Below the pieces are notes generated by a model. The model had not been told where the DNA came from, ran no database searches, and saw nothing but the letters and a program-made list of their open reading frames with translations. The position numbers were made by a program, and so were the translations under genes. DNA of 64,000 bases from an uncultured Pseudoxanthomonas sp. (GTDB lineage Bacteria; Pseudomonadota; Gammaproteobacteria; Xanthomonadales; Xanthomonadaceae). Each line of letters opens with the position of its first letter. Position 1 is the stretch's first letter. Of the stretch, positions 2,464 to 18,477 are shown piece after piece. The stretch is taken from NCBI GenBank assembly GCA_946886405.1, contig CAMPIO010000001.1:18980-82979 (forward strand). The letters run 5' to 3'.

Positions 2464-3665
2464 TGAACCAGACGCCGCACGACCATCCTGACATGGGCCC
2501 CGAACGGGCAGCTCCGCAGAGCCCCTACCAGACATCGCGTCCTGCGCCGGATCCCGACCTCGACGCGAACGCGCCCTACCTGCGTTCCGCCGATGTGCAG
2601 CGGTTGAACCGAAAGGCATTGCTGTTCCTGGCGGGCATCATCGTGCTGATGCTGCTCGTCGTCTTCTGGATATTCAGTGGCGGCCTGTCCTCCAGGGACG
2701 ACGGGGAACAGGTGTCAGCCAAGGGGGAACAGGTAGTGATCCCCGCCGCGCCGCGCGACCTGCCGGACTTGCCGCCGGAGGCGCCACCGGTGCCACTCGA
2801 GCCGGATCTGCCGCCATTGCCGGTGGTCGGCGAGACGGACCAATCGACGGCGTCGATGATGGCCATGCCGTCCGGATTGCCGGATCGGCAGGAGCCTTCG
2901 CTGCGCGAACGCCGCATGCTCGACATGGCGAGCACGTTCGGGGAAGGGCAGACAGCACAGGCGCCGCCGCAGGATCCCGGCATGGCCGAATACGCAGCCC
3001 TGCTGTCCGGTCAAGCCGGGCAGGGACCTGCGGCGCCGCGCGAGGCCCCGGATGGGATGACCAGTGCAAAGCCGCTCTACAACCCCAACACACTGCTGCT
3101 GCGCGGCACCTACATCCGCTGCGTGCTTGAGTCGCGCGTCATCACCGATGTGCCTGGCTACACCTCCTGCGTGGTGACCGAGCCAGTGTATTCGGTCAAT
3201 GGCAAGCGTCTGTTGCTGCCGCGTGGCTCGAAAGTGATGGGCAGCTACAACTCGGAAGCCATCATCGGTGAGCGTGCCGCCATCGTCTGGGACCGAATCA
3301 CTACGCCCACCGGCATGGATGTCAACATGCGCAGTCCTGGCACCGACATGCTCGGTGCCGCCGGCAATCCCGGACACTATTCCGCGCACTGGGCGCAGCG
3401 CATCTCATCGGCCCTGCTGATCAGCATGCTCAGTGATGCGTTCAAGTACGCCGGCGCCAAGCACGGCCCGCAGGAGACCTCGATCGTCAACGGCGCCATC
3501 GTCCAGAATCCCTACGAAAGCAATACCGCCAGGACCATGGAGCGCCTGGCCAACATGGCGCTGGACCGCAACATGGCGCGTCCACCGACGGTGACGATCA
3601 ACCAGGGCACCATCGTCAACGTTTACGTGGCGCGTGATGTCGACTTCTCCGCGGTGATGCGCTGA
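2463..3665 (+). CDS. virB10: VirB10 transenvelope core protein
   Basis: VirB10 spans both membranes and senses ATP use at the inner membrane. Visible parts in order are a cytoplasmic tail (1-50), one membrane segment (about 51-72), a Pro-rich periplasmic linker (about 93-125, repeated LPP/PPxP), and the C-terminal beta-barrel/antenna domain from about 205 with LLLRGTYIRCVLESRV, LLPRGSKVMGSY and the terminal TINQGTIVNVYVARDVDFS. Length (400 aa) fits the family. It begins at the virB9 stop (TAATG) and ends 13 bases before virB11. Confidence 0.93.
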   Translation: MNQTPHDHPDMGPERAAPQSPYQTSRPAPDPDLDANAPYLRSADVQRLNRKALLFLAGIIVLMLLVVFWIFSGGLSSRDDGEQVSAKGEQVVIPAAPRDLPDLPPEAPPVPLEPDLPPLPVVGETDQSTASMMAMPSGLPDRQEPSLRERRMLDMASTFGEGQTAQAPPQDPGMAEYAALLSGQAGQGPAAPREAPDGMTSAKPLYNPNTLLLRGTYIRCVLESRVITDVPGYTSCVVTEPVYSVNGKRLLLPRGSKVMGSYNSEAIIGERAAIVWDRITTPTGMDVNMRSPGTDMLGAAGNPGHYSAHWAQRISSALLISMLSDAFKYAGAKHGPQETSIVNGAIVQNPYESNTARTMERLANMALDRNMARPPTVTINQGTIVNVYVARDVDFSAVMR

Positions 3666-3678
3666 CCGGCGTGCAGGC

Positions 3679-4719
3679 ATGGATACGCAGAACGAGCCCC
3701 TTGCCCGCGTCTCCAACGAGTTCCTGGACTACCAGTACCAGGTGCTCGGGATCGGCGAGCACATGCAATCCTCGGATGTCACCGAGATCTGCATCAATCG
3801 CCCGGGCGAGCTCTACCTCGAAACAGCGCGGGCAGGCTGGCTGAAAGCCGACGTGCCGACGCTGACCTTCGAGCGGGCCCGGCAGTTCTGCACCTCGGTC
3901 GTCAACGAAAGCAACACCGGCCAGCGCATCACCGACATCGATCCGATGGTATCGCTGACGTTCCCGACCGGACAACGCGCCCAGTTCGTGATCCCGCCGG
4001 CCTGCGATGCTGGCAAGGTGTCGATCACCATCCGTCTGCCCGCGAAGTTCGGCAAGTCGCTGGAGCAGTACGAACAGGACGGCTTCTTCAGCGAAATCCT
4101 CGAACAGCAGCAAGTACTTGGCGATCACGACCAGGAGCTCCTGGAGTTGCGGCGCAGCCGCAACTACGCCGAATTCTTCCGCAAGGCGGTCCACTACCAC
4201 AAGAACATCGTGGTCGCCGGCGCTACCGGTAGCGGCAAGACGACCTTCATGAAGTCGCTGGTCAACCACATTCCCGACCAGGAACGCCTGGTGACGATCG
4301 AGGATGCGCGCGAGCTGTTCATCCGGCAGCCCAACGTCGTCCACCTGCTGTACTCCAAGGGCGGACAGAGCGCCAGTAACATCACGGCCAAGAATTGCAT
4401 GGAAGCCTGCCTTCGCATGAAGCCGGACCGCATCATCCTGGCGGAGCTGCGCGGCGACGAATCCTTCTACTTCATCCGCAATTGCGCGTCTGGCCACCCG
4501 GGGTCCATCACCAGTTGCCACGCCGGTAGCACGGCGCAGACCTGGGACCAGCTCGCCCTGATGGTCAAAGCGTCTGCCGAAGGAGCAGGCCTGGAGTTTG
4601 AGGTCATCAAGCGCCTGTTGAAGATGACCATCGACATCGTCGTGCACATCAAGGCGCACGCCGGACGCCGTTACATCACCGGCATCGACTTCGATCCCGC
4701 CCGTGCCTTGGCTGCCTGA
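3679..4719 (+). CDS. virB11: VirB11 hexameric secretion ATPase
   Basis: This is a cytoplasmic traffic ATPase of the VirB11/GspE family that powers pilus assembly and substrate passage with VirB4. Walker A GATGSGKT is at residues 181-188. The Asp box (VTIEDARELF) follows, then Walker B-like RIILAELRGDE and the His box GHPGSITSCHAGS. The N-terminal domain (about 1-165) and length (346 aa) are normal. The gene sits between virB10 and virB1, the Xanthomonas order. Confidence 0.94.
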   Translation: MDTQNEPLARVSNEFLDYQYQVLGIGEHMQSSDVTEICINRPGELYLETARAGWLKADVPTLTFERARQFCTSVVNESNTGQRITDIDPMVSLTFPTGQRAQFVIPPACDAGKVSITIRLPAKFGKSLEQYEQDGFFSEILEQQQVLGDHDQELLELRRSRNYAEFFRKAVHYHKNIVVAGATGSGKTTFMKSLVNHIPDQERLVTIEDARELFIRQPNVVHLLYSKGGQSASNITAKNCMEACLRMKPDRIILAELRGDESFYFIRNCASGHPGSITSCHAGSTAQTWDQLALMVKASAEGAGLEFEVIKRLLKMTIDIVVHIKAHAGRRYITGIDFDPARALAA

Positions 4720-4728
4720 AGGACGCAC

Positions 4729-4821
4729 ATGAACTCGATGCACCCATCACTGGACGGACTGGCGATCACCAAGGCGACTGGTGCGCACTTTCCGTGTGGT
4801 GGGAAAGGGAGGCTCTGCTGA
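4729..4821 (+). CDS. Possible 30-residue coupling peptide between virB11 and virB1
   Basis: ATG 4729 follows GAAGGA (4718-4723) and opens a 30-codon frame whose TGA (4819-4821) overlaps the virB1 ATG as TGATG. Translation of this frame could deliver ribosomes to virB1. The peptide (begins MNSMHPSLDGLAITK) has no signal or domain I recognise. It may be only a coupling device, or chance, since virB1 also has its own GGGAGG. Confidence 0.3.
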   Translation: MNSMHPSLDGLAITKATGAHFPCGGKGRLC

Positions 4822-5642
4822 TGTTGCCTGGCATGGAACTGATGGGCTGCACCGGACTGGCGGTTCCCCCGACCGTGATGGAGCACGTCGTGAAGGTCGA
4901 GTCCTCCTTCAATCCCTATGCGATCGGCGTGGTGGGGGGGCGACTGGCGCGGCAGCCACGCAATCTGGCGGAAGCACTGTCGACGGCCCGCATGCTCGAG
5001 GATCGCGGCTACAACTTCTCGCTCGGGCTGGCGCAGGTCAATCGCTACAACCTCACGCGGCAGGGGTTGGACAGCTACGAGAAGGCGTTCGACGTCTGCC
5101 CCAACCTGTTGGCGGGTTCTCGCATCCTCGCCGAGTGCTACTCGCGCTCCGGCAATGATTGGGGCAAGGCCTTCAGCTGCTACTACTCCGGCAACTTCAC
5201 CACAGGCTATCGCCACGGATACGTACAGAAGGTATTCGCCTCCTGGCAGCGGCAGGCAGGCAAAGGCACAGCGCAGGCGATTCCCGTGATCGATCGACGG
5301 ACTGCCACGCAGGTGCCGCGCACGACATCACGGACAGCATCGGTAACCACTTCACGCACCGCGACGGCAGGCCAGACATCGTCACGTGTGGCGCGACGCG
5401 TCGAGGAGGCGAGGTCCGAGCGGCCTCACCAGCAGCGCGTTGCCGTCAGTGCAAGTGACGCGCCGCGACTTGCGACAAGCACGGCGCCGCTGCCGTCAGC
5501 GCCCACCGTGCCGCCTGCCATCGCGCAGGCATCGGCCGACGCACCCGTCACGGTGCAGGCCTACCACCAGAACACCACCGTGACGCCGCAAGCGTCGCAG
5601 GTTGTGCAGGCATCCGGGAGGGATGACGCTTTCGTCTTCTAG
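4821..5642 (+). CDS. virB1: VirB1 lytic transglycosylase
   Basis: VirB1 is a lysozyme-fold enzyme that opens peptidoglycan for T4SS assembly. The catalytic Glu is E27 in KVESSFNPYAIGV. The family motifs GYNFSLGLAQVNRYNL (about 70-85) and CYYSGNFTTGYRHGYVQKV (about 122-140) follow. After residue 150 there is a Thr/Ser/Arg/Ala-rich tail of low complexity. The ATG at 4821 is preferred over GTG 4794 because GGGAGG (4806-4812) is well placed. No classical signal peptide is visible, so export may be unusual or the start may differ. Confidence 0.9.
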   Translation: MLPGMELMGCTGLAVPPTVMEHVVKVESSFNPYAIGVVGGRLARQPRNLAEALSTARMLEDRGYNFSLGLAQVNRYNLTRQGLDSYEKAFDVCPNLLAGSRILAECYSRSGNDWGKAFSCYYSGNFTTGYRHGYVQKVFASWQRQAGKGTAQAIPVIDRRTATQVPRTTSRTASVTTSRTATAGQTSSRVARRVEEARSERPHQQRVAVSASDAPRLATSTAPLPSAPTVPPAIAQASADAPVTVQAYHQNTTVTPQASQVVQASGRDDAFVF

Positions 5643-5715
5643 CAGTACCCGCCAGGGATGGCTCATCGGCACGCGAAAGTGCCACCACCGTTGCAATCAC
5701 CATTTGGGGTCGACT

Positions 5716-6090
5716 ATGAACAACATGCAGATCAACCAGGCGAAGCAGGCATCCAGCGCAATGATCATGGTGATCATTGCCGCCACCGCGCTGGCATTTC
5801 CCGAACTGGCACTCGCCCAGGACGCCACGGGCGCACAGGGACGCGTCACAAGCTTCTTTACCAACATCAATTCGCTGCTGAACGTGGCGTCGATCGCCAT
5901 CGTGACCATCGCGGTGATCTTCGCGGGCTACCAGATCGCGTTCAACCACAAGCGGGTCGGCGACGTGGCGCCGGTACTGATCGGTGGCTTCCTTATCGGC
6001 GCCGCAGCGCAGATCGCGAAGATGCTGCTGCCGTCGGACGTCACTTCCACCGCGATGGTCGTGGGCCAGATGCTGACACCGTATGCATAA
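5716..6090 (+). CDS. virB2: VirB2 major pilin
   Basis: This encodes the pilin subunit. A long hydrophobic signal ends near AFPELALA-QD (about residue 37), followed by two hydrophobic helices (about 57-76, VASIAIVTIAVIFAGYQIAF, and about 86-104) joined by a short cationic loop (NHKRVGD). This is the standard VirB2/TrbC layout. ATG 5716 was selected because upstream codons lack pilin-like composition. The last 8 bases overlap virB3. Confidence 0.9.
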   Translation: MNNMQINQAKQASSAMIMVIIAATALAFPELALAQDATGAQGRVTSFFTNINSLLNVASIAIVTIAVIFAGYQIAFNHKRVGDVAPVLIGGFLIGAAAQIAKMLLPSDVTSTAMVVGQMLTPYA

Positions 6091-6397
6091 GAACGTGCTG
6101 TTCAGGGGCTGCACACGCCCGCCCATGTTCATGGGGGTTCCCTATGTGCCCTTCACGATCGGGGCGGGTGGCTGCCTGCTGCTCACGTTCTACTTCAACA
6201 TGTTCTTCCTGGCCCTGTTGCCGGTGGTCATCTTCATCATGCGGCAGATGGCACGCCGCGACGAGATGATCTTCCGGCTGCTCGGGCTGCGATGGCAGTT
6301 CCGGACCAAGGTCCGGAACCTCCGTCACCATGAAGGCATGTGGGTGTTCACGCCCAACAGCTATCGCAAGCGCTTCGACGACTCCATTCCAGACTGA
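6083..6397 (+). CDS. virB3: VirB3 inner-membrane protein
   Basis: This is a small (104 aa) inner-membrane protein that works with VirB4 in pilin handling. The N-terminal FRGCTRPPMFMGVPYVPF is the family hallmark, followed by a hydrophobic hairpin (about 23-53) and a cationic C-terminus. It starts within virB2 (8-base overlap) and is followed by virB4 after 4 bases, so the three are surely cotranscribed. Confidence 0.92.
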   Translation: MHKNVLFRGCTRPPMFMGVPYVPFTIGAGGCLLLTFYFNMFFLALLPVVIFIMRQMARRDEMIFRLLGLRWQFRTKVRNLRHHEGMWVFTPNSYRKRFDDSIPD

Positions 6398-6401
6398 CGC
6401 C

Positions 6402-8909
6402 ATGCTCGCGCCCGACCTGTCCATCGCCGAATTCATCCCCCTGTCCGCCCACGTGTCGCCCCACGTGGTCAAGACGACGGGTGGCGACTTCCTGCTGACG
6501 TGGCGACTGGACGGATTGCCATTCGTTGGACGCGAGGAGTGGGAGCTGGAGCATCGGCACAATACGTTCAACCGCATGCTGCAGACCTTGCGGGCACCCG
6601 ACTTCGTCAACGTCGCGTTCTGGGTCCACGATCTCCGGCGTCGCGGCCGCATCCGGTCCGGCGCGCGCTTCGGCCAGACGTTCAACCAGGAACTGTCGGA
6701 CGGGTACTTCGACGCGCTGTCCGCGCAGAAGATCATGCAGAACGAGCTCTACCTCACGATGATCTACCGGCCCATCGTGATGGGGAAGAAGTTCGTCGAG
6801 AAGTCCGCCAACGTGCCGCGTCTGCAGGCAGAGCAGGATCAGGCGGTAGACAAGCTCATGGAGCTGGCGGGCAACGTGGAGGCTGTGCTCAAGGACTACG
6901 CACCGATACGACTCGGCATGTATGAGCCCGACACGGGCGGGGTCTTCTCCGAAACGCTGGAGTTTTTCGGCTTCGTGCTCAACCGCATCTCCGAGCCGGT
7001 CCCGGTCCTGCGTGCGCCGCTTTACGACTACCTCGCGGTGAGCCGGCACATGTTCTCGTCGAAGACCGGCGACTTCGTCGTCAGCACGCCGGACGGCCAG
7101 AACCACTTCGGTGCCATCCTGAACATCAAGGAATATACGGACGGCACCTGGCCCGGCATTCTCAACGGGTTGAAGTACCTCGACTTCGAATACGTCATCA
7201 CCCATTCGTTCAGCCCGATGGGGCGCCAGGATGCGCTGAAGGTGCTGGATCGCACCAAGGGCATGATGATCTCGTCAGGCGACAAGGCGGTAAGCCAGAT
7301 CATCGAGCTGGACGGTGCCATGGACCAGGTCGCGTCCGGCAACTTCGTGCTGGGCGAGTACCATTTCATCATGACCCTGTACGCGGAGGATCAGCAGCGT
7401 CTCTCGCAGAACGTGGCAGTGGCGCGCGCGGAACTGTCCAACGCAGGCTTTGTGTCGGCCAAGGAAGACCTGGCCGTCTGCTCTTCCTTCTATTCCCAGC
7501 TGCCGGGCAACTGGCGCTATCGCACGCGCCTGGCGAACGTCAGTTCGCTGAACTTCCTCGGCCTTTCGCCGCTGCACAACTTCGCCACCGGCAAGCGCGA
7601 CCACAATCCTTGGGGCGACAACGTCACGGTGCTGCAGACCACGAACGGCCAGCCCTACTACTTCAACTTCCACGCCACGCATCCCGCCGAAAATTCGCTG
7701 GGCGAGAAGGCCATTGCCAATACCATGGTCATCGGCAAGTCGGGCACCGGCAAGACGGCGTTGATCAACTTCCTGCTCAGCCAGGTGCAGAAGTTCGATC
7801 CGGTGCCGACGATCTTCTTCTTCGACAAGGACCGCGGTGCCGAGATATTCGTACGTGCCTGCGGAGGGAACTACCTGGCGCTGGAGAATGGCCAGCCCAC
7901 GGGCTTCAACCCGTTCCAGTGTGAGCGTACTGACGCCAACGTGCAGTTCCTGGCAGGGCTGGTCAAGGTGCTGGCGGCAAAGAGCCATTACACCGCGCGT
8001 GAGGATGAGGACATCTTCCGGGCGGTCGAAGCCATGCTCGACATGCCGCTTCACCTGAGGTCGATGACCAATTTCCAGAAGAGCCTGCCCAACATGGGCG
8101 ATGACGGACTCTACGCGCGACTGCGCAAGTGGACAGCCGGCAATGCCCTCGGCTGGGTCTTCGACAACCCCGTCGACACCATTGACCTGAGCCGCGCCAG
8201 CATCATCGGCTTCGACTATACCGACGTCATCGAGAATGCCGAGATCCGTGTCCCGGTGATCAACTATCTGTTGCATCGTCTGGAGGAGCTGATCGACGGC
8301 CGTCCGCTGATCTACGTGATGGACGAGTTCTGGAAGATCCTGGACGGTGGTGGTGCCCTCAAGGACTTCGCGAAGAACAAGCAGAAGACCATCCGGAAGC
8401 AGAACGGCCTGGGCATCTTCGCCACCCAGAGCCCGGAAGATGCCCTGGCCAGCGACATCTCGGCGGCGCTGATCGAGCAGACCGCCACCCTTATCCTGCT
8501 GCCGAATCCCAATGCGGCACGCGAAGACTATATCGACGGGCTGAAGCTCACCGACGCGGAGTTCAAGGTCATCAAAAGCCTGGACGAACGCTCGCGTTGC
8601 TTCCTGGTCAAGCAGGGGCACGCGTCGACCGTATGCCAGCTCAACCTGCGCGGCATGGACGACGCGCTTGCGGTGATATCGGCCAGCACCGACAACATAG
8701 AGATCATGCATCGCATCGTCGATGACGAGGCATTGCGCCTCGGCATCGACAAGGCCGACCTGCTGCCCGAGCAGTGGTTGCCGCGTTTCCAGCAGGAGAG
8801 GAAGGGATCGCGCAGCCGTCGGGAGACACCGGCGCCCTCGTCTTCACGGGAGGACCGTTCCACCGGCCCGCGCTCCACGCGGCCCACCCACTCCAGCATC
8901 CAGCGCTGA
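6402..8909 (+). CDS. virB4: VirB4 secretion ATPase
   Basis: This is the largest T4SS ATPase and is bound at the inner membrane. Walker A GKSGTGKT is at residues 445-452 and Walker B YVMDEFW at about 638-644 (D641, E642). The family stretch ATQSPEDAL and the C-terminal LPNPNA region are present. Length (835 aa) matches VirB4/CagE proteins. ATG 6402 was chosen since it lies 4 bases after virB3 and gives the normal N-terminus MLAPDLSIAEFIPL. The last 35 residues are Arg/Ser-rich and probably disordered. Confidence 0.94.
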   Translation: MLAPDLSIAEFIPLSAHVSPHVVKTTGGDFLLTWRLDGLPFVGREEWELEHRHNTFNRMLQTLRAPDFVNVAFWVHDLRRRGRIRSGARFGQTFNQELSDGYFDALSAQKIMQNELYLTMIYRPIVMGKKFVEKSANVPRLQAEQDQAVDKLMELAGNVEAVLKDYAPIRLGMYEPDTGGVFSETLEFFGFVLNRISEPVPVLRAPLYDYLAVSRHMFSSKTGDFVVSTPDGQNHFGAILNIKEYTDGTWPGILNGLKYLDFEYVITHSFSPMGRQDALKVLDRTKGMMISSGDKAVSQIIELDGAMDQVASGNFVLGEYHFIMTLYAEDQQRLSQNVAVARAELSNAGFVSAKEDLAVCSSFYSQLPGNWRYRTRLANVSSLNFLGLSPLHNFATGKRDHNPWGDNVTVLQTTNGQPYYFNFHATHPAENSLGEKAIANTMVIGKSGTGKTALINFLLSQVQKFDPVPTIFFFDKDRGAEIFVRACGGNYLALENGQPTGFNPFQCERTDANVQFLAGLVKVLAAKSHYTAREDEDIFRAVEAMLDMPLHLRSMTNFQKSLPNMGDDGLYARLRKWTAGNALGWVFDNPVDTIDLSRASIIGFDYTDVIENAEIRVPVINYLLHRLEELIDGRPLIYVMDEFWKILDGGGALKDFAKNKQKTIRKQNGLGIFATQSPEDALASDISAALIEQTATLILLPNPNAAREDYIDGLKLTDAEFKVIKSLDERSRCFLVKQGHASTVCQLNLRGMDDALAVISASTDNIEIMHRIVDDEALRLGIDKADLLPEQWLPRFQQERKGSRSRRETPAPSSSREDRSTGPRSTRPTHSSIQR

Positions 8910-8930: not shown

Positions 8931-9704
8931 ATGAGCCAGTCGACATCGCACACCGCCAACTACCTTGCCATCGCACTCCTTGCCGTCGGTCTCGGCGCAA
9001 CCGCCAGCGCCCAAGCGCAATGGCGGGTGGTGGACAACGCCGCCAACACCAAGCTGCAGGACATGAACGGCCGCATCGGCACGACCAGTGCCAGTGGCAA
9101 CGGCAATGGCACGGTGAACGGCAACCTGCGCGAGCTTTACCAGCAGCAGGTGTTCGAATCGTTCAACGGCAACAACGAGGACAGCAAGGCCGCGCCGGAG
9201 CCCGAAGAAAAACTGCAGCATGCGCAGCCCACCAGGAGTGGCGTGAACATGAATGCGGACAACCGCTGCAAGCAGGCGACCAGCGGCATCGCGCAGCAGC
9301 AGTACCAGTTGTGCCGCGAGATCGTGAACACCGAACTGGCGAAGTACAACTACTCGCTGAAGATGTACGAGGTGACCACGCAGCGCCAGCGCTACCTGGA
9401 CGAACTCAAGCGTCAGCGCGCCAACATCCAGAGCCATGAAGTTGGCAAGCTGCAGGACAACACGAACCGCATCCTCCTGCTGATGTCGCAGATGGAGATC
9501 GACCGCCAGCAGCAGCAGACGTACATGGATGCCTACGTCGCCCGCATCGGGTACCTCCAGGAAGCCAGCAAGACCCTGTCACAGCAGGCGTTGGAGGGCA
9601 AAGGAAGCGCGTCGGCTGGCGTCGGTGGACTCATCGGCGGTGCGGTGGGCATCGGCACGCTGAAGTTGGCGCTGGACGCAGCACAGTCCAAGCGTCGTCA
9701 TTGA
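8931..9704 (+). CDS. virB5: VirB5-like minor pilin component
   Basis: This is a secreted protein with a signal peptide (about 1-30, cut near ASAQAQ). It is rich in Gln and helical, with a long heptad-like region (about 115-215, including QRQRYLDELKRQRANIQ). It resembles the divergent VirB5 of Xanthomonas-type systems in size and helical content, and in lying between virB4 and virB6. Two Cys (about 107 and 124) may form a disulfide. A Gly-rich hydrophobic patch (about 228-248) is near the C-terminus. The name rests on position plus general features, since VirB5 proteins share little sequence. Confidence 0.75.
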   Translation: MSQSTSHTANYLAIALLAVGLGATASAQAQWRVVDNAANTKLQDMNGRIGTTSASGNGNGTVNGNLRELYQQQVFESFNGNNEDSKAAPEPEEKLQHAQPTRSGVNMNADNRCKQATSGIAQQQYQLCREIVNTELAKYNYSLKMYEVTTQRQRYLDELKRQRANIQSHEVGKLQDNTNRILLLMSQMEIDRQQQQTYMDAYVARIGYLQEASKTLSQQALEGKGSASAGVGGLIGGAVGIGTLKLALDAAQSKRRH

Positions 9705-9763
9705 TCTCAGGCGGGATGCACGCCCCGACACAGGACGCGTCGTAGCAGCACGAAGGAATGAAC

Positions 9764-10831
9764 ATGGTGGATTTACCTTCATTGGGTAGCGGATTGGCGG
9801 CGGTGCTGCGCGAAATGGGCGCGGCGCTGGGCGCCGTCGAGCGCTGGGCGTTCTTCAGGCTGGTGTTCGACTGGGTCGACGAGGAGATCAACATCTTCCG
9901 GGACAACCTGCTTGGCGAGATGGCCGAATGGGTGGGTGGTGTCGCCTTCGTCCTGCTCACCCTCTGGGTATTGCTGCAGGGCTATCGCATCGTCACTGGC
10001 CAGTCGCGACAGTTCATGATGGAGCTGGTGGTCAAGTCGCTGAAGTGGGTGCTGATCATCACCGTGGCCACGACGTTCGCGATGGGAAGCAGCAACATCC
10101 ACCAGCTCCTGACCGACGACATGCCGCGCGCGATCAACGAATTGGTGACCGGCGACGACGAGGGTCCCGAGGACTCCATCGACGACAACCTGCAGCAGAT
10201 GGAGCTGGCGATGGTGGCCATCGATGCGCTCTACACGAGCTTCGACGAGACGCTACAGGAAGCCAAGACCCGCACCATGTGGTTCACCGGCGTGGGCGTC
10301 GCTGGCCCATCGCTGATGGGCGGGGCCATCCTCCTGATGTACAAGATGGCGATGGCGCTGTTCGTCGGGCTCGGGCCGTTCTTCATCCTGACACTGGGGT
10401 TCGAGCAGACCAAGGGCATGTTCCAGAAGTGGATCTGGTACGGCGTCGGCACGATGTTCTCGCTGGCGGTGCTCGCCTTCACCGTATCGATGATCTCCAA
10501 GCTGTTGGGCGTGGTGGCGGTGTCGTTCGCCGCGCAGTACCTGACCTTGTTGGCAACCAGTACGTCGCCGCAAGGTATCAGCAGTATGGCGATGCAGCAG
10601 GGCGGCCTGGGTCTTCTGATGACCCTGTTCCTGGTCACCGTACCGCCCATGGCGGCGGCGTTCTTCCAGGGAACCATTGGTCAGTTCATGGCTTACAACG
10701 CGTTTGGGCAAGGGCAAGGGCAAGCGATGCAGCCGACGCGGCCAGGTGGCGGATACGTTCCGGCGTCTGGAGGAGACGCGAGTAATCCGACCAGCGCAGC
10801 AGTGCACAGCCACCGAGGGACGCTCGCATGA
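9764..10831 (+). CDS. virB6: VirB6/TrbL polytopic inner-membrane protein
   Basis: VirB6 is the polytopic channel component of the inner-membrane complex. At least five hydrophobic segments are visible, starting around residues 56-73, 90-105, 180-205, 225-255 and 285-305. TrbL/VirB6 family stretches include GLGPFFILTLGFEQTKGMFQKW. The C-terminal tail after about residue 312 is Gly/Gln/Pro-rich. ATG 9764 is preferred over 9758 because AGGA (9754-9757) then has a 6-base spacing. The 3' end overlaps the next gene as ATGA. A diverged copy of this 3' end reappears near 11931. Confidence 0.92.
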   Translation: MVDLPSLGSGLAAVLREMGAALGAVERWAFFRLVFDWVDEEINIFRDNLLGEMAEWVGGVAFVLLTLWVLLQGYRIVTGQSRQFMMELVVKSLKWVLIITVATTFAMGSSNIHQLLTDDMPRAINELVTGDDEGPEDSIDDNLQQMELAMVAIDALYTSFDETLQEAKTRTMWFTGVGVAGPSLMGGAILLMYKMAMALFVGLGPFFILTLGFEQTKGMFQKWIWYGVGTMFSLAVLAFTVSMISKLLGVVAVSFAAQYLTLLATSTSPQGISSMAMQQGGLGLLMTLFLVTVPPMAAAFFQGTIGQFMAYNAFGQGQGQAMQPTRPGGGYVPASGGDASNPTSAAVHSHRGTLA

Positions 10832-11346
10832 GTGGGAAATGTCTTGAAGGACTTCTGGCGGCCGCTACTTTGGTAGCGTCCGGAGTGCTTTGGTCTGCAA
10901 CAGCGGGCGCGCAGACCGCGTGCCCTCAGGGTGTGACGCCGGGTAGTTCGCAATGCCTGCCCACTCCTCAGGGTGGAAGCCAAGCGATTCAAGCGCCGGC
11001 TCCTCGCTGGAAGCTGACGTGGGGAGCCATTGCTCTTGATCAAAGTACGGTCTCAATTGGCACAGCAACCGGACAGGTCTCCCGCCGAGCCGCGCTGAAA
11101 GAGGCTAAGGAGAAGTGCGAGTCAATTGGAGGAAAAGACTGCAGGATCATCCTTTACTACGAAAATCAATGTGCTGCGATAGCAGAGCCTGTGGCGGATA
11201 TCGAACCAATGATCGCGTCATATAAGGTTGGCCTCTCATCGCAGGAAGCGATAGATAGGGCAGTTCAAGAATGCGAAACAAAAAACAATGACGGGAGCTG
11301 CAAGCCAATATATTCAAGTTGCACAACTCCTATAAGAGTCAGATGA
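10828..11346 (+). CDS. DUF4189 secreted protein, copy 1
   Basis: This is an exported protein of unknown function with a signal peptide (about 1-29, ending TAGAQ) and a DUF4189-type domain: APRWKLTWGAIALD, GQVSRRAALKEAKEKC, GGKDCRIILYYENQC and a C-terminal Cys pair. About eight Cys in the mature part suggest disulfides in the periplasm. It starts inside the virB6 stop (ATGA), so it is made together with VirB6 and may serve the T4SS. Codon use is visibly more A+T-rich than in the virB genes, which suggests separate origin. Its stop overlaps the ATG of the broken copy 2. Confidence 0.8.
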   Translation: MSGKCLEGLLAAATLVASGVLWSATAGAQTACPQGVTPGSSQCLPTPQGGSQAIQAPAPRWKLTWGAIALDQSTVSIGTATGQVSRRAALKEAKEKCESIGGKDCRIILYYENQCAAIAEPVADIEPMIASYKVGLSSQEAIDRAVQECETKNNDGSCKPIYSSCTTPIRVR

Positions 11347-11871
11347 GTTTGAGTAGCGATATGGAGTTTATTGGCCTGACTATATTTCTTCTATCGACAC
11401 TGGGGCAGTCCCCCGTGGCGAAAGCCCATACTGCATGCCCCCAAGGAGTAACGCTTGGAAGTTCACAGTGCTTGCCGACGGGACCAGGCGCTACGCAGGC
11501 TCTTTCGCCATCGCTGCATGGGTGGAAAACGACGTGGGACGATCTCGCATCAGATGCGGAAGTTACTGTAATGGGTACCTCCTCTGATCAATCATCGCGA
11601 CGCGAAGCGGAAGGCCGCCATAGCGAAATGCCAATCGATGGGTGGGCAAGACTGCAAGATCACACTGGCCTAAGAAAACCAATGCGTCTTGATCGCAGGG
11701 CCGGTGGCCAATCTCGAGAGCTTCAAGCCTATGCATTCCCGAGGACCTATGGTTGAGATAACAAGCAATTTCGCACTTTGGGAATGCGCTCTCACAAACC
11801 AGGAAACGCGCGCTAGATCATCTACTCGAATTGTACTTGACCCGTACTCGTCAACTTGGCCTGACCCATAA
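11343..11871 (+). pseudogene. Broken DUF4189 gene, copy 2 (frameshift plus nonsense)
   Basis: From ATG 11343 the frame encodes a signal peptide and the family opening TACPQGVTLGSSQCLP. Near 11605-11612 the homology jumps frame: the shifted frame reads AKRKAAIAKCQSMGGQDCKIT, matching SRRAALKEAKEKC..GGKDCRI of copy 1. There, TAA (11671-11673) replaces the Tyr codon of the family YENQC. The same frame then continues ENQCVLIAGPVANLE and so on to 11871. Two separate lesions mean this copy is dead unless the assembly is wrong. It keeps the overlapping start with copy 1. Confidence 0.8.
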
Positions 11872-11930
11872 CCCTCAATAAGGATGTTGGATGAAGCGAG
11901 AGAGTACGTTTCTGTTTAGCTGCACGGGGC

Positions 11931-12142
11931 CACCTGTTCCTGGTCGCCGTACCACTCATGGCGGCGGCGTTCTTCCAGGGAACTGTTGGTCAGTTCAAAG
12001 CTTGCAACGCGTGCTGGCAGGGCGGGCGGCTCAGCCGAATCCGGCACAGCCAGACGTTCTGTATCCCAATGCGCCAGCGGTGGCACCCAACACAAGTATT
12101 ACGACTGCGGCCCCGCAGACTCCGCAGAGGACATACGGATGA
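11931..12142 (+). pseudogene. Displaced 3' fragment of a second virB6
   Basis: Bases 11933-12015 align with the resident virB6 at 10624-10706 with about eight differences by eye, encoding LFLVAVPLMAAAFFQGTVGQF. After a frame change near 12010-12030 a Pro/Ala-rich tail follows (AAQPNPAQPDVLYPNAP, then an end TYG-stop at 12140-12142). Its stop overlaps the start of DUF4189 copy 3 as ATGA, exactly as resident virB6 overlaps copy 1. The tail differs wholly from the resident tail, so this is an end from another virB6 allele. There is no plausible start codon of its own. Confidence 0.75.
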
Positions 12143-12648
12143 TTGAGTTGATGAGTCATAGCTCGCTGCGCCTCGCCCCCATGCTTCTGCTGACGTTTGT
12201 TGCCGTATCGGCAGAGGCTCAGATGGCATGTCCGCAAGGCGTGACGCCTGGAAGCTCGCAGTGCTTACCCAGTGGTGGTGGGGGTGCAGCGCCTCCTCCA
12301 GCCCCGCGCTGGCGGCTTACTTGGGGTGCCATGGTCGAGGATACGGTTACTGGTTATGTTGGCACATCTACTGGCCAGTTCAGTCGCCGGGCGGCGCGCC
12401 AAGTAGCCATGAGGAAGTGCGTAGGAATGGGCGGCATGAATTGCAAGCCGATCTTTGACTACAAGAACAACTGTGCGGTTGTTGTAGAGCCTGTGGAGTT
12501 CATCCATGGCAGTTCGATTGCCGTATATCGAGACGGATCAAGCGTGGAGGATGCGTCAGGCGTCGCACTTGCATACTGCAAGCAACAAAACGGGCGAGAG
12601 TGCAAAGTGAACTACGCGAACTGCACTAGCCCAGTACTTGTGAATTGA
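12139..12648 (+). CDS. DUF4189 secreted protein, copy 3
   Basis: This is an intact 169-residue exported protein. The signal peptide is about 1-27 (LLLTFVAVSAEAQ), followed by the same DUF4189 pattern as copy 1: MACPQGVTPGSSQCLP, APRWRLTWGAM, GQFSRRAARQVAMRKC, NCKPIFDYKNNC, and a C-terminal NYANCTSP. It begins within the stop of the displaced virB6 tail (ATGA). Function is unknown; periplasmic and disulfide-bonded by inference. The start at 12139 fits the coupling seen at the first copy; ATG 12154 is an alternative. Confidence 0.75.
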   Translation: MIELMSHSSLRLAPMLLLTFVAVSAEAQMACPQGVTPGSSQCLPSGGGGAAPPPAPRWRLTWGAMVEDTVTGYVGTSTGQFSRRAARQVAMRKCVGMGGMNCKPIFDYKNNCAVVVEPVEFIHGSSIAVYRDGSSVEDASGVALAYCKQQNGRECKVNYANCTSPVLVN

Positions 12649-12680: not shown

Positions 12681-13082
12681 ATGAACGTCAGGAATGTCTT
12701 GCTTTTAAGTTTCATGGCCGTTTCGGGCTGCGCATCCATCCCGGCGAACTTGGCAGCCAAGAAGTGGGTTGGACGGAGCATGGGTGAAGCGAGTTCTGTT
12801 TTCGGTGAGCCCGTCCACTTGAAGGCGCAGGACGATGGACGAACGGTGGGGGTCTGGCATCTCGAGCGCTATATGGAGGAGCTCAGGCCCGTTGGAAACG
12901 TGATGGGGCGTGATGCTGGTGGAAGGCCCGTGCTTCATCCCGTCCATGAGATGAGACAGAACAGGTACGCATGCGAGGTAACGCTGGTAAGCGAGGGTGA
13001 CCGGATTGTTTCCGCCAAGGTTCGGCCGATCGCCGGCATGGGGCCGCTGTTGGCGGGAGGTTGCGCTCAGGAAGGGCTATGA
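12681..13082 (+). CDS. Small lipoprotein of unknown function
   Basis: This is a 133-residue protein with a lipobox AVSGC (Cys17). The mature part has the pattern WVGRSMGEASSVFGEP..GRTVGVWHLERY..CEVTLVSEGDRIVSAKV, which recalls small BamE/OmlA-fold envelope lipoproteins. That likeness is weak and from pattern only. It lies between the DUF4189 genes and the first effector pair and is read in the same direction. Confidence 0.6.
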   Translation: MNVRNVLLLSFMAVSGCASIPANLAAKKWVGRSMGEASSVFGEPVHLKAQDDGRTVGVWHLERYMEELRPVGNVMGRDAGGRPVLHPVHEMRQNRYACEVTLVSEGDRIVSAKVRPIAGMGPLLAGGCAQEGL

Positions 13083-13222
13083 GGATGACCAAACGAATCA
13101 ACGACCGGATCCCTGAAAGTGAACGCCAATGCATCTGCCCGACATGTAAAGACGCTTGCGTCGGCAGTGCGCATCGCAGGCAGGTTCGAATGCGACGCCG
13201 CGTGCCGCACGGTAGCGCTGTC

Positions 13223-13930
13223 ATGAAGACGCGTCAGCCATGGCGTGCAGATGACTCTTTCAGCGTACGCGCGCGCGTGGCCGTCAGATTGATGGCGCGT
13301 TCACTGCTTCCCGCTGCGCTGTTATGGGTTTCCGCATGTTCGCAAGGACAGGATATGAACACTACGACTGATGCCCCAACCGAAGAAGGTGAGCCCCTCC
13401 GGAAGCTCAATCCGGCGCCGAAGCGCGGCTACGTCGTCACCATGACGTTGAAGGACGCGCCTGGACCGTTCGCCTCCATCGAAGGAGTTGCGCAGTACAC
13501 CGTGGAGAATTCGGCCGAGTGCGGGAAGAAGATTCCAATAGCGGGTGTGTTTCCCCGGATCAGCACCAATGAGCCCTTCGTGCTGACCCGTGTATCCGAA
13601 AGCGAGTATCGGGGGATCGTGTATGCCGACCTGGTGCTGGATGAGGATTACTTCGGACGCGGCGTATGCCGATGGGCGTTTGTGGAAGCGCGCGTCCGGC
13701 TTCGGGCAACGGATGACGAAAGGGACGCCAGATTCGTACCCAGCATTGTCGCGGAGTCCATTGTTGCTGGTGAATCCGATACGAGGTATTTCTGGAAAGA
13801 GCTCTACCCGCGTGTCAAAGATTACGATGCATATCCGGTATTCGGCGAAGCCAGTCTCGATAGTGTTCCTTCGGATAAGCGCGGAGAGTTCTTCACGATC
13901 ACCCTGAATTCTGAGGAGGCCGCGCCATGA
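13223..13930 (+). CDS. Lipoprotein, putative immunity protein for the adjacent lipase
   Basis: A lipoprotein signal (LLPAALLWVSAC) precedes a polar periplasmic domain (GYVVTMTLKDAPGPFASIEGVAQYTVENSAECGKK). The gene ends in an ATGA overlap with the lipase gene, so the two are made together. In Xanthomonadales bacterial-killing T4SSs, envelope-directed effectors are encoded beside periplasmic lipoprotein inhibitors (X-Tfi), and this arrangement fits. The start is uncertain: ATG 13079 overlaps the preceding stop but would bury the signal; ATG 13223 and ATG 13291 (giving MARSLLPAALLWVSAC) are more sensible. I recognise no named domain. Confidence 0.6.
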   Translation: MKTRQPWRADDSFSVRARVAVRLMARSLLPAALLWVSACSQGQDMNTTTDAPTEEGEPLRKLNPAPKRGYVVTMTLKDAPGPFASIEGVAQYTVENSAECGKKIPIAGVFPRISTNEPFVLTRVSESEYRGIVYADLVLDEDYFGRGVCRWAFVEARVRLRATDDERDARFVPSIVAESIVAGESDTRYFWKELYPRVKDYDAYPVFGEASLDSVPSDKRGEFFTITLNSEEAAP

Positions 13931-15219
13931 GTTTTGGGTCGCAAGCCTATGCAGGACTGGCGGATGATTCCTATCGGGATCGGTCCGCAGGCATCCGTCC
14001 GAGTGGCGAGGAAGAGAGGGTCACGATCGAGGGTGTCGACTACAAGATCCTTGAGCACGTCGACAGCAAGAGGACCGGATATCAAGGCACGATCTATCGG
14101 CGAGTTGACGGCGGAGAGATCGTGGTCGCTCATCGTGGCACCGAGCAGACATGGAAGGATGGCGTCGTCACCGACGGTTCGATGGTGCTGAGCCGGATCA
14201 ACCCGCAGGCCAACGAGGCGATCGAGTTGACGAGGCGTGCGGTCGCTCTCGCCAGGCAAGAAGGCATGCAGCCTGGAAAGACCACCCCGGAAGTTACCGT
14301 CACCGGCCACTCCCTAGGTGGGACACTGGCTCAGATCGCGGCGCATCACTTCGATCTGCGGGGCGAGACGTTCAATGCGTACGGCGCGGCCAGTCTTGAT
14401 CGCCGCATCCCTGAAGGCGGCGACAAGGTGCGCAACCACGTGATGGCGGCCGATACCGTCAGCGCGGCCAGTCCACACTACGGATTGGTCAAGGTGTATG
14501 CGACCGAGAAGGAGGTGGCGACATTGCAGGCCTCCGGCTACCACAGCAACCGCCTGCTCGATGTCGTCACGCCCGACAATCCTTTTCTGGCTGCAGGCGC
14601 TTCGTTGGGCTCGCATTCGATGCACCATTTCCTTCCGGTCGATGGCAAGGGCGCGCGCGACCGCTCCGTGCTCGACGACCCCCGCGCGAGCGCCCTTGCC
14701 GAAGAGAACCGCCGCGCGATCGCTGGCTATCGGGACGATGTGGAGGATCTGCGCCGGGGTATCACCGTGATTTCCCGCGGCCCGTTCGGTGCGTTGCGCG
14801 ACGGGTTCGATGCCGCGCGCGGCCCACTCCTGCCGGGAGAGCCCGCTGCGCGCGAGGGACGTACCGGTCAAGCGCGACCGCTATCGGAATGGGGGGCGCT
14901 GGCAGCGACCGCGAAGAGCGTGAACGAACGCGCCCGTGCAGAGCGGGAGGTCGGGGACGAGTCTTTCCCGTTCCATCCGCCGCTCCGGTCGGACGCACGG
15001 TCTCCGTCGTCGGAAGTGGAGCGCCTGTTGAAGGCGGCGCGGACGGGTGACCCAGGTGCGTTGCGCGCCGCGCAGGAAGAACTGCAGGCATCCGACTTCG
15101 GTCAGGCCTGGCTTGCGCGCGTGTACGAGCGCCAGGGCGAAATTCCGCGACAACTGCCAACGCAGGAAGCCTTGCAGCGTGAAGCCATCGAGCCTTCCAT
15201 GTCCCACATGGCGCGATGA
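13927..15219 (+). CDS. Class 3 lipase-type T4SS effector candidate
   Basis: This is an alpha/beta-hydrolase of the lipase class 3 type. The nucleophile elbow GHSLGG places Ser129 at residues 127-132, and SHSMHHF puts His233/234 where the catalytic His is expected. The upstream stretch IVVAHRGTEQTWKDGV matches the family oxyanion region. There is no signal peptide, consistent with T4SS delivery. The probable target is membrane phospholipid of rival bacteria. After about residue 250 the protein is charged and variable and ends in a short helical segment (about 365-405). No typical XVIPCD secretion domain is apparent. It overlaps the putative immunity gene by 4 bases. Confidence 0.75.
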   Translation: MSFGSQAYAGLADDSYRDRSAGIRPSGEEERVTIEGVDYKILEHVDSKRTGYQGTIYRRVDGGEIVVAHRGTEQTWKDGVVTDGSMVLSRINPQANEAIELTRRAVALARQEGMQPGKTTPEVTVTGHSLGGTLAQIAAHHFDLRGETFNAYGAASLDRRIPEGGDKVRNHVMAADTVSAASPHYGLVKVYATEKEVATLQASGYHSNRLLDVVTPDNPFLAAGASLGSHSMHHFLPVDGKGARDRSVLDDPRASALAEENRRAIAGYRDDVEDLRRGITVISRGPFGALRDGFDAARGPLLPGEPAAREGRTGQARPLSEWGALAATAKSVNERARAEREVGDESFPFHPPLRSDARSPSSEVERLLKAARTGDPGALRAAQEELQASDFGQAWLARVYERQGEIPRQLPTQEALQREAIEPSMSHMAR

Positions 15220-16539: not shown

Positions 16540-16635
16540 GCCGATTCACAGTTGACCGACTTGTATCAGGCCCATGGAGGGGCCCGGTTGACGTCCAGCG
16601 ACCCCGAGTCGCGTACCTCAGCAAAGGAGCCAACG

Positions 16636-18477
16636 ATGGCCAGTCAGTACACACGTGAACAGATTCTCGACATCATCGAAAGACAAGCGCAGGAAAGCGG
16701 TATTCCGCGGGAAGACTTCCTGCGATTCGCCTACATCGAGACGGGCGGGCGCTTCAACCCGAATGCAAGCAATCCCAGCGGCGCGAAGGGACTGTTCCAG
16801 TTTGTGCCGGGCACAGCCGAGGACTACGGAATAGCGGGGCAGGAGTTCGATCCGGTGGCGAACACCCGCGCGGCAGCAGCGTTGTATTCGGACAATCTGG
16901 GCGATATCACGCGCCGGCAGGCCCGCAGCGGCCACGATTTCCTCTCCGGGAACGAGACGCCGAGCGGACTGGACCTGTACCTGGCCCACCAGCAGGGCGC
17001 GGCCGGCTATGCGTCCATCCAGAATGCGATCGAGGCAGGTGAGTTCACACGCACCAACACGCGCAGGAATATCCTCAACAACATCAGCGAGCTTGATGTC
17101 GAGCGTCTGACAGGTCGTGCCTACGCAGACCTGCGCGGGCTTGATGATCGCGAGCTGGCAAGTACGTTCACGCAGTACTGGAATACCAAGTACGCCGCCA
17201 TCAGCATCGCGGACCGCGGTATCCACGCGAGCCAGCCCGACGCGGCTGTCCGCGAGCGCACGTCGCCGCTGGCGGATGGTGTGTTGCAGAGTGGTGAACG
17301 CGGCGAAGAGGTGCGCGCCTTGCAAACCTCGTTGAACCAGCTGGGATTCCGCGACGGCCAGGGTGCGGAACTGGAGACGCGCTCCGGCATCTACGGGGGC
17401 AAGACGCAGGAAGCCGTGCGCGCATTCCAGACTGCGAACCTGCTTGAAGCCACCGGCAACGCCGACGCGCGTACGCGCGAAGCGATCGCGCAGCAACTCG
17501 CGTTGCCCGAACAGGATCGCAATCGTGCCCCAGCCGCTGAAGCACCGCAGCACGAGGGCGGATTGGCCTGGCCGACCCCGGGCAACCATGACATCAACCA
17601 GGCCGACAAGCCGCGCGAGGGTCGGGGTGAGTTCGGTACGCCACGCAGCGGTGGACGGCGCCATGGCGGCATCGACATCGAGGGCAACGTCGGCGATCCG
17701 GTTGTGGCCGTTGCGGGCGGTACTGTGGTGGTGCGTCCGAACAATGAGGCGGCCGGCAACACCGTGCATGTGCGGCACGACGACGGCACGCTGACGAAGT
17801 ACTTCCATCTCGACGAGTTCAGCGTGCGCAATGGGCAGCGCGTCGAAGCCGGGCAGCAGATCGGCACCATGGGCAGGACCGGCAACACGCCGGCGCAGGG
17901 CGATACGCACCTGCATTTCGAGATGTGGCGCGATGGCCGCCAGGTGGACCCGTTGCCGCACCTGCAGGGTGCCGAGCGTGATGCCGCCGTTCCGACTCGG
18001 GCGGCTGCACCTGAGGTGCTGCGCGATGGCTCGTCGGGCGCCTCGGTGCGCGAGCTGCAGCAGCAGCTCAATCAGTTGGGTTATCGCGGTGCCGACGGGC
18101 AGCCGCTGGAAACCACCTCCGGCAAGTTCGGCCCCCAGACAGAACATGCCCTGCGGGCGTTTCAGGCGGACCGTGGCTTGAAAGTGGATGGCGAGTACGG
18201 TGAGCGCTCCCGAGAGACGCTGACCAAGGCCACGCGCGATGCGGCACGCGAGACGACGCCTGCGGAGACCACGCCTCAGAGCGTGCGGGGTGAGGATGCA
18301 CAGCGCTCGTTCGTGGACCGCATGTTCTCTGCCATGCATGGCGGCGACGATCGCGCAATGCGCCAGGCGCTTGACGACTACCTGAAGACGCCCGCTGGCG
18401 AGGGTTGGCGGAAAGAGCCCGTCGAAATAGAGCAGCAGGCCGCGCAGCAACGCGATCAGGTCGGGCCTGCCCGCTGA
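16636..18477 (+). CDS. Multidomain peptidoglycan hydrolase, T4SS effector candidate
   Basis: 613 residues, no signal peptide. Domains in order are: a lysozyme/SLT-like domain (about 1-200; likely Glu35 in FAYIETGGRF, then GAKGLFQFVPGTAEDYG); a PG_binding_1 domain (about 216-290); an M23 endopeptidase (about 330-435, with HGGID giving H343/D347 and HLHFE giving H425/H427); a second PG_binding_1 (about 462-530); and a helical C-terminus (about 560-613). It could therefore cut both glycan and peptide bonds. Absence of a Sec signal and linkage to the T4SS argue for injection into rivals. AAAGGAG (16623-16629) fixes the ATG. Confidence 0.8.
   Translation: MASQYTREQILDIIERQAQESGIPREDFLRFAYIETGGRFNPNASNPSGAKGLFQFVPGTAEDYGIAGQEFDPVANTRAAAALYSDNLGDITRRQARSGHDFLSGNETPSGLDLYLAHQQGAAGYASIQNAIEAGEFTRTNTRRNILNNISELDVERLTGRAYADLRGLDDRELASTFTQYWNTKYAAISIADRGIHASQPDAAVRERTSPLADGVLQSGERGEEVRALQTSLNQLGFRDGQGAELETRSGIYGGKTQEAVRAFQTANLLEATGNADARTREAIAQQLALPEQDRNRAPAAEAPQHEGGLAWPTPGNHDINQADKPREGRGEFGTPRSGGRRHGGIDIEGNVGDPVVAVAGGTVVVRPNNEAAGNTVHVRHDDGTLTKYFHLDEFSVRNGQRVEAGQQIGTMGRTGNTPAQGDTHLHFEMWRDGRQVDPLPHLQGAERDAAVPTRAAAPEVLRDGSSGASVRELQQQLNQLGYRGADGQPLETTSGKFGPQTEHALRAFQADRGLKVDGEYGERSRETLTKATRDAARETTPAETTPQSVRGEDAQRSFVDRMFSAMHGGDDRAMRQALDDYLKTPAGEGWRKEPVEIEQQAAQQRDQVGPAR

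Follow-up and report, generated by a model that had tools for sequence, protein, structure and literature searches.

Exchanged virB6 3′ ends and retained DUF4189 genes behind a type IV secretion operon of Pseudoxanthomonas: a candidate system for kin exclusion

Results

The window, by which we mean the whole stretch of 64,000 nucleotides analysed here (uncultured Pseudoxanthomonas sp., assembly GCA_946886405.1, contig CAMPIO010000001.1), carries a type IV secretion system (T4SS) operon that terminates with virB6, and behind this gene lies an array of DUF4189 genes that includes a displaced virB6 3′ end. All window features described below are on the plus strand. The resident virB6 (9758-10831, 357 aa; PF04610, E = 1e-28) encodes a protein with a variable tail, for which the structural model has low confidence from residue 309. 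The gene ends in an ATGA overlap with its resident partner, DUF4189 gene A (10828-11346; PF13827, 75.4 bits against a cut-off of 25; signal peptide by eye), as a preliminary description of this DNA had stated. A second virB6 3′ end begins 1309 bases on, with 87% identity over 90 nt (84/98 in a gapped alignment). It consists of a body fragment (11933-12027) homologous to 10624-10721 and a displaced tail, AAQPNPAQPDV...QRTYG (12023-12142), which runs through another ATGA overlap into DUF4189 gene C (12139-12648; 56.3 bits), the intact displaced partner. Genes A and C are identical at 77/168 positions. The repeat, the second overlap and the intact gene C had all been described before; it had been missed that the virB6 remnant is frameshifted. 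Because its body and tail lie in different frames, the remnant at 11933-12142 is a decayed piece and not an open reading frame (ORF). Also overlooked, in an array otherwise correctly described as holding A and C, was a third DUF4189 copy, B (11343-11808), between gene A and the remnant. Copy B starts with an ATG at 11343 in an ATGA overlap with the stop of A and has decayed through a frameshift and an internal stop; its profile match covers 11403-11808 in three pieces.

Chance similarity of the virB6 fragment was ruled out by the nucleotide alignments together with a tblastn match (E = 2e-7 over 30 residues). An assembly artefact at 11931-12142 was also ruled out, because a like layout recurs in other genomes, in some of them on contigs of several Mb. 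Searches against NCBIfam returned no match for the DUF4189 proteins A and C, and the match for virB6 was weak and under the cut-off; PADLOC returned none for virB6 or for either DUF4189 protein.

The closest named relatives found were Pseudoxanthomonas, with virB6 identities of 86-88% in loci L001-L004. When the displaced virB6 fragment was aligned to the window's own virB6, the alignment ended at 12027. Against the resident virB6 of Pseudoxanthomonas japonensis DSM 17109 (L002), the match took in the entire tail and reached into the ATGA, with 153 of 222 alignment columns identical over 11934-12145. The AAQPNPAQPDV-type tail was thus found on a full-length virB6 in another strain, as the preliminary description had anticipated, and a C-like DUF4189 follows it there. 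Gene C shares 73% identity with this resident partner and 80% with an L001 orphan. Gene A is matched by the L123 resident (80% identity, tail score 0.91), and no DUF4189 retrieved from outside L123 exceeds 51%. VirB6 core identity is 0.95 between the window and L001, 0.91 between the window and L123, and 0.98 between L123 and L002, the last pair having a DUF4189 identity of 0.48. Since the window core is closer to that of L001 than to that of L123 while gene A and its tail pair with L123, the core and the 3′ module have different histories. A displaced pair equal to the resident pair of other strains was found in L107, where the match to the residents of L074 and L109 was 97 and 95% for DUF4189 with a tail score of 0.87; the window case is looser (73% to L002).

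We surveyed 395 genomes from the family of genome G001, counting DUF4189 among the matches listed. DUF4189 was present in at least 175 genomes and a relative of the window virB6 in 190; 164 of the 175 DUF4189 genomes had both (odds ratio 111 over the 395 genomes). One genome outside this association, G398, has a DUF4189 gene (L112) near which no T4SS gene was recognised, and at the search threshold this genome yielded no virB6 relative. Profiling covered 108 loci, 97 of which had DUF4189 after removal of L119, which repeats L072. They came mostly from the Pseudoxanthomonas family, with a few from other families (a Rhodoferax metagenome-assembled genome, Luteibacter), and some genomes contributed more than one locus. 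Loci were selected partly for the strongest and most clustered DUF4189 matches among those listed, and the frequency of arrays is therefore not an estimate of prevalence.

These loci held 264 DUF4189 elements, 89 behind a full virB6, 57 behind a 5′-truncated virB6 and 118 behind neither; without L119, four contig-edge cases and three broken residents, the counts became 87, 50 and 118. The 50 copies behind truncated virB6 pieces were spread over 30/97 loci. The 5′ ends of these pieces were scattered over model positions 17-275 of 320, and their 3′ ends extended to position 304 or beyond in 43/50 and to 312 or beyond in 39/50. Four displaced units were present in L058 and seven in L077, a dense array with about 1 kb per unit. 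The likeness to the orphan modules of CdiA/Rhs loci that had been suggested for the window is therefore seen, by architecture and not by family membership, in the window and in 50 units, each with a 5′-truncated 3′ end and a downstream partner in like orientation. In the 87 resident units DUF4189 adjoins a full-length VirB6-type gene, which is the arrangement of exclusion genes. The ATGA overlap was rejected as a general hallmark: the DUF4189 start fell at –4 to 0 of the virB6 stop in 16/87 residents and at +1 to +30 in 52/87, the start being scored as the candidate closest to the virB6 stop, a choice that favours overlap. As a separate observation, L148/L149 of G360 hold four full-length virB6-DUF4189 units within ~33 kb; behind the two in L148 stand genes that resemble those of lipoproteins and effectors, along with repeats of virB4′-virB5 and transposase-like genes (by eye).

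Replacement of the 3′ module was clearest between loci with near-identical VirB6 cores (28 cross-locus resident pairs with core identity of at least 0.95, from 28 loci, with different genomes within each pair). Median core identity in these pairs was 0.99, median tail score 0.17 and median DUF4189 identity 0.52, and none of the 28 shared a resident DUF4189 at 0.80 or above. In 4/28 pairs one strain carried as an orphan what was resident in its partner, two of these pairs doing so in both directions (L079/L090, 96 and 93%; L065/L132, 91 and 92%). Sorted by core identity in a control that omits pairs without an array on either side, resident-orphan matches numbered 4/27 at 0.95 or above, 3/52 at 0.85-0.95, 3/131 at 0.70-0.85 and 0/2705 below 0.70. 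Equal residents at 0.80 were absent from pairs with cores of at least 0.95, occurred three times at 0.85-0.95 (L074/L109, window/L123, L095/L085) and were absent below. The twin list (11/82 residents) includes L106, which lies at a contig edge, and L073-L125, whose twin is a resident that is broken. The resident-orphan matches indicate that in the matched cases DUF4189 was replaced and did not just evolve fast. The proposal that an incoming virB6 end with its partner displaces the old one downstream is strongly supported by these matches, by the resident pair of L002 and by the arrays in 30 loci, and on these sequence comparisons we regard exchange and displacement at the virB6 3′ end as very likely.

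Tail and DUF4189 types co-varied, as had also been predicted. All 20 module pairs with a tail score of at least 0.5 had a DUF4189 identity of at least 0.62; 19 of these were between different loci, with overlapping memberships, so that the pairs are not independent. For 64/121 modules the best DUF4189 partner elsewhere ranked within the top 5% by tail, whereas 200 shuffles gave 5.7 such modules on average and never more than 13. The partial Mantel correlation of tail and DUF4189 given the core was 0.22 (82 residents), a value reached in 0/2000 permutations. Among the 90 pairs with cores of at least 0.85 the tail-DUF4189 Spearman coefficient was 0.50, and that of core and DUF4189 was near zero. 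The own resident could be used for comparison in 27 displaced modules, and 21 of these were matched better by a module elsewhere than by that resident.

The variable part of VirB6 is a short, low-complexity tail. Resident tails have 16-116 residues, of which 69% are P/S/T/G/N/Q/A, and are modelled with low confidence; their length and composition rule out a toxin domain, and they do not fall under the definition of contact-dependent growth inhibition (CDI)/Rhs polymorphic toxins. A short Gly-x-Arg-Gly-like motif was seen near the end of 44/87 resident tails, after the variable stretch. Because the VirB6 model places the tail past the fifth membrane pass, the tail is probably in the cytosol. 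DUF4189 proteins have an apparent export signal (signal peptide by eye) and look soluble, with eight Cys in 72/87 resident domains. A lipoprotein was considered and rejected, with a lipobox-like pattern in just 4/87 residents. At core identities of 0.80-0.90, the median tail score was 0.71 in loci without DUF4189 (14 pairs) compared to 0.29 in loci with it (28 pairs), the DUF4189-less tails also being shorter. Of the 19 loci without DUF4189, 17 were used (L141 was dropped and one lacked the anchor motif); 13/14 pairs were Luteimonas and the remaining pair scored only 0.11, and we did not rely on tail hypervariability as proof of function. In L141 itself (2650-5034, minus strand), the virB6 frame stays open for more than 400 residues and enters a region that matches the SRAP family.

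The preliminary description had taken the VirB6 end and DUF4189 to be one exchangeable pair. The exchange stands, but a tail and partner kept together do not: for 118 DUF4189 copies no virB6 piece could be detected immediately upstream, which points to the DUF4189 gene, and not tail plus partner, as the item that is kept. We scored a copy as intact when a single profile piece covered at least 130/154 positions (region ends may cut copies); 44/50 copies behind a virB6 piece and 96/118 without one were intact. An intact DUF4189 beside a broken virB6 piece was seen in 18 units and the reverse in 2 (p = 0.0004). For pairs of intact DUF4189 genes with at least one displaced member and an identity of at least 0.68, the ratio of nonsynonymous to synonymous substitutions (dN/dS) was 0.03-0.42 where defined. 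Median pN/pS was 0.23 in the 38 pairs scored as both displaced, in a set that kept the contig-edge cases and where part of the divergence may predate displacement. Gene C compared with the L001 orphan gave a dN/dS of 0.09. In L108 a virB4-like ORF (by eye) is joined directly to a virB6 tail and no virB6 body was found, yet DUF4189 is intact, 92% identical to that of L105 with a dN/dS of 0.07; the same genome has a second virB6 locus, L083, and the loss could be of any age. Orphan DUF4189 genes are thus constrained and outlast the virB6 pieces.

This constraint bears on two other explanations of the arrays. Recombination at a repeat-prone locus might simply leave functionless copies behind, as the decay of copy B and the share of non-intact copies (22/118 without a virB6 piece, 6/50 with one) might suggest. 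We consider such neutral debris very improbable, given dN/dS values well below 1 among the orphans, the 96/118 and 44/50 copies that are intact and the match of some orphans to residents of other strains. Alternatively, the displaced units may form a reservoir of silent cassettes, donors that recombine back into virB6 and so vary both the tail and DUF4189, the latter perhaps serving the T4SS as a structural or surface accessory. Displaced pieces do retain homology to virB6, in 28/50 of them the body and the tail share a reading frame that stays open until a stop close to where DUF4189 begins, and the tail types behind near-identical cores are highly diverse; the CDI literature also proposes such a model, alongside one of immunity (PMC4927057, as far as its text was available). 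On the other side, DUF4189 outlasts the virB6 pieces (18 vs 2) under purifying selection, and the 118 copies without a piece just upstream offer no virB6 sequence there to recombine with. On balance we find a silent reservoir unlikely.

The operon upstream of the array was identified by Pfam (virB8-virB11 and virB1-virB4, nine upstream proteins matched). It begins with a VirB7-like protein (304-762), whose TcpQ match (E = 8e-5, 23 bits) is under the Pfam cut-off of 27; VirB7 of X-T4SSs has an extra C-terminal N0-like domain. Next is virB8 (779-1705), encoding 308 aa, of which the Pfam domain stops at 238 and the remainder is a Pro/Ala-rich C-terminal extension. This agrees with the reported X-T4SS criterion of a 290-370 aa VirB8 with an Ala/Gln/Gly/Pro-rich C-terminal extension (PMC6536674, from the part of the article at hand). 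Then follow virB9 (1702-2463), virB10 (2463-3665), virB11 (3679-4719), virB1/SLT (4794-5642), virB2 (5602-6090), virB3 (6083-6397) and virB4 (6402-8909). An ORF at 8931-9704, with a signal peptide by eye and without a Pfam match, occupies the virB5 position by analogy with other virB operons.

Downstream of the array lie a candidate immunity gene without family match (13061-13930) and a class-3 lipase gene, a candidate effector (13927-15219). The same order is present in L001, and a lipase-like gene stands behind the array in L010 (by eye). None of the window ORFs longer than 120 residues fit either of two simple XVIPCD patterns, and effectors may be encoded elsewhere; XVIPCD-like ends were seen by eye in L010, L086 and L109. 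The lipase and an SLT/peptidoglycan-binding/M23 protein (16552-18477), neither of which fits the two patterns, share a short C-terminal motif, GD..A[LM]R.A then G..W, which may be an alternative secretion signal.

A further alternative is that DUF4189 is an ordinary effector-specific immunity protein (X-Tfi) for toxins encoded elsewhere, with virB6 ends hitch-hiking as recombination homology. The repeat unit in the G360, G334 and G161 loci would fit, as behind DUF4189 it contains two further genes, one lipoprotein-like and the other with an XVIPCD-like end, to which G360 adds virB4′-virB5 and transposase-like genes (all by eye); so would the order virB6-xac2611-Tfi-Tfe reported for Xanthomonas citri, although there the Tfi is a gene separate from xac2611 (PMC7286519, in the portion available). 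Dense arrays such as L077 leave scant space for effectors. In five loci (L103, L105, L111, L114, L134) no effector was seen by eye in the ~3.6 kb behind virB6-DUF4189, effectors elsewhere in these genomes not having been sought, and the next same-strand gene is a glucosidase-like ORF (by eye). These five loci indicate that DUF4189 goes with virB6, and we judge effector-specific immunity to be improbable.

Discussion

We propose that incoming DNA with a different virB6 3′ end and its own DUF4189 would recombine into virB6, making the new pair resident and leaving the old DUF4189, with a 5′-truncated piece of the old virB6, downstream in like orientation. Repeated rounds would build arrays in which virB6 pieces decay and DUF4189 genes are retained. 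The exported-looking DUF4189 would block, or confer tolerance to, attack by a T4SS with the matching VirB6 type, so that the resident copy would spare sister cells and the orphans would spare cells from attack by strains still using an old type. Taken as a whole, exchange and displacement with DUF4189 as a kin-exclusion or immunity factor is the account we lean towards, with modest confidence. That DUF4189 has an exclusion function comparable to that of TraS/Eex, a proposal made by analogy, seems to us about evenly balanced. We favour exclusion because the kept part looks exported, its partner is a channel subunit, and TraS and Eex seem to act on VirB6 homologues that are encoded next to them. 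In a more specific and more tentative form, exclusion would work at the level of the machine: DUF4189 would stop any T4SS of like VirB6 type irrespective of its effectors, and the arrays would record and cover past and neighbouring types.

In X. citri, a strain lacking eight effector/immunity pairs and XAC2609 was reported to be still not killed by the wild type, with the protection still to be characterised (Oka et al. 2024, PMC10933484, in the part accessible to us). DUF4189 could supply this sister-cell protection. In this species xac2611 is flanked by virB6 and the immunity gene, within a single transcript (PMC7286519). Its published quantitative PCR primers (PMC3953393, partial text) translate in frame to GSPQC-8 residues-DDIPTP, and GSPQC-8-x[DE][IL]PxPP occurs in 7/232 intact DUF4189 domains of the surveyed loci, which suggests that xac2611 encodes a DUF4189 protein. 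Among the hypothetical genes near virB, xac2611 was reported as the exception whose expression was alike in medium and in planta, with no fall (PMC3953393). A homologue search with the L008 DUF4189 gave three matches including itself, and X. citri was not among them by name.

Several points weigh against exclusion by DUF4189, or leave room for simpler accounts. The window's T4SS is inferred to be a bacteria-killing, X-T4SS-like machine, with killing deduced from its relatives. There are 11 genomes with DUF4189 and no matching virB6, and 26 with virB6 and no DUF4189. In 24/28 close pairs there is no resident-orphan match at 0.80, and both replacement and fast evolution are possible there. The correlation of tail and DUF4189 is weak among the 28 pairs with cores of at least 0.95 (Spearman 0.27, p = 0.17; core-DUF4189 near zero), and displaced modules often match weakly elsewhere, six tested L077 modules reaching at most 0.51. 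Because adjacent genes are exchanged as one block, linkage alone could yield all of the tail/DUF4189 co-variation. Simple duplication may account for some of the growth of the arrays, given the 118 copies without a virB6 piece upstream, and the arrays could be the silent donors discussed above. With DUF4189 exported-looking and the tail probably cytosolic, direct contact with the tail needs an unusual route, and on these models we find binding of the two doubtful. The contact regions of TraS/Eex and TraG in SXT/R391 and F are reported as cytoplasmic (PMC11493245, in the text available). DUF4189 is also present in mycobacteria (Rv1813c), and the available portion of the report on that protein describes no exclusion-type role (PMC10269737).

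Kin of bacteria with antibacterial secretion systems are commonly thought to be spared because each toxin has its own immunity protein. Such immunity is reportedly not what chiefly shields X. citri from its T4SS, and the actual shield was named as uncharacterised (PMC10933484). VirB6/DUF4189 is a concrete, genetically marked candidate for the missing protection against fratricide in X-T4SSs and makes the question testable. If true, the proposal would tie killing machines to the entry exclusion of conjugation, point to a function of DUF4189 in a T4SS setting and might explain multiple virB6 copies. Four copies are reported in X. euvesicatoria (PMC10432156, partial text) and may be a like phenomenon.

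Comparison with known systems

The fold comparison matched DUF4189 to a solved member of PF13827, Rv1813c of Mycobacterium tuberculosis (PDB 7NHZ); a sequence search for a solved relative of gene A gave none at E ≤ 1. Rv1813c is a secreted mycobacterial protein, with no T4SS context in the sections of the report available (PMC10269737), and the fold does not point to a function.

Orphan modules of this architecture have been described for CdiA/Rhs loci, and exclusion for conjugation; we found no report of the two combined around the VirB6 of a killing T4SS, nor of virB6/DUF4189 arrays, in the literature searched, with most subscription papers and all preprints lying outside that search. In CdiA/Rhs loci, a new 3′ end and its partner are thought to enter the big gene and to leave the old pair downstream in like orientation, often in tandem, and displaced units can equal the residents of other strains (PMC4927057). 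The window and its relatives are alike in all of these respects, with replacement of a 3′ end and partner, tandem leftovers downstream and matches to residents elsewhere. The difference is that the CdiA/Rhs 3′ end is a toxin domain, whereas here the gene that is cut encodes a channel subunit with a low-complexity tail and the product that is kept looks exported.

X-Tfi proteins such as XAC2610 are likewise small exported proteins encoded in the operon region of a killing T4SS. They are paired with effectors, whereas DUF4189 is paired with virB6, and in X. citri the two genes virB6 and Tfi are separated by xac2611, which the source text lists as a hypothetical gene.

In conjugative entry exclusion, the apparent target of TraS and Eex is TraG, the VirB6 homologue of the donor, whose gene is adjacent to theirs (PMC11493245; also PMC12624023, both in part). 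Shared with the present loci are the small-protein gene that adjoins the gene for a VirB6 homologue and the distinct type groups within a family. Entry exclusion concerns a DNA substrate and cytoplasmic contacts, whereas the loci described here encode a soluble-looking, Cys-rich protein with a signal peptide (by eye), in multi-copy arrays.

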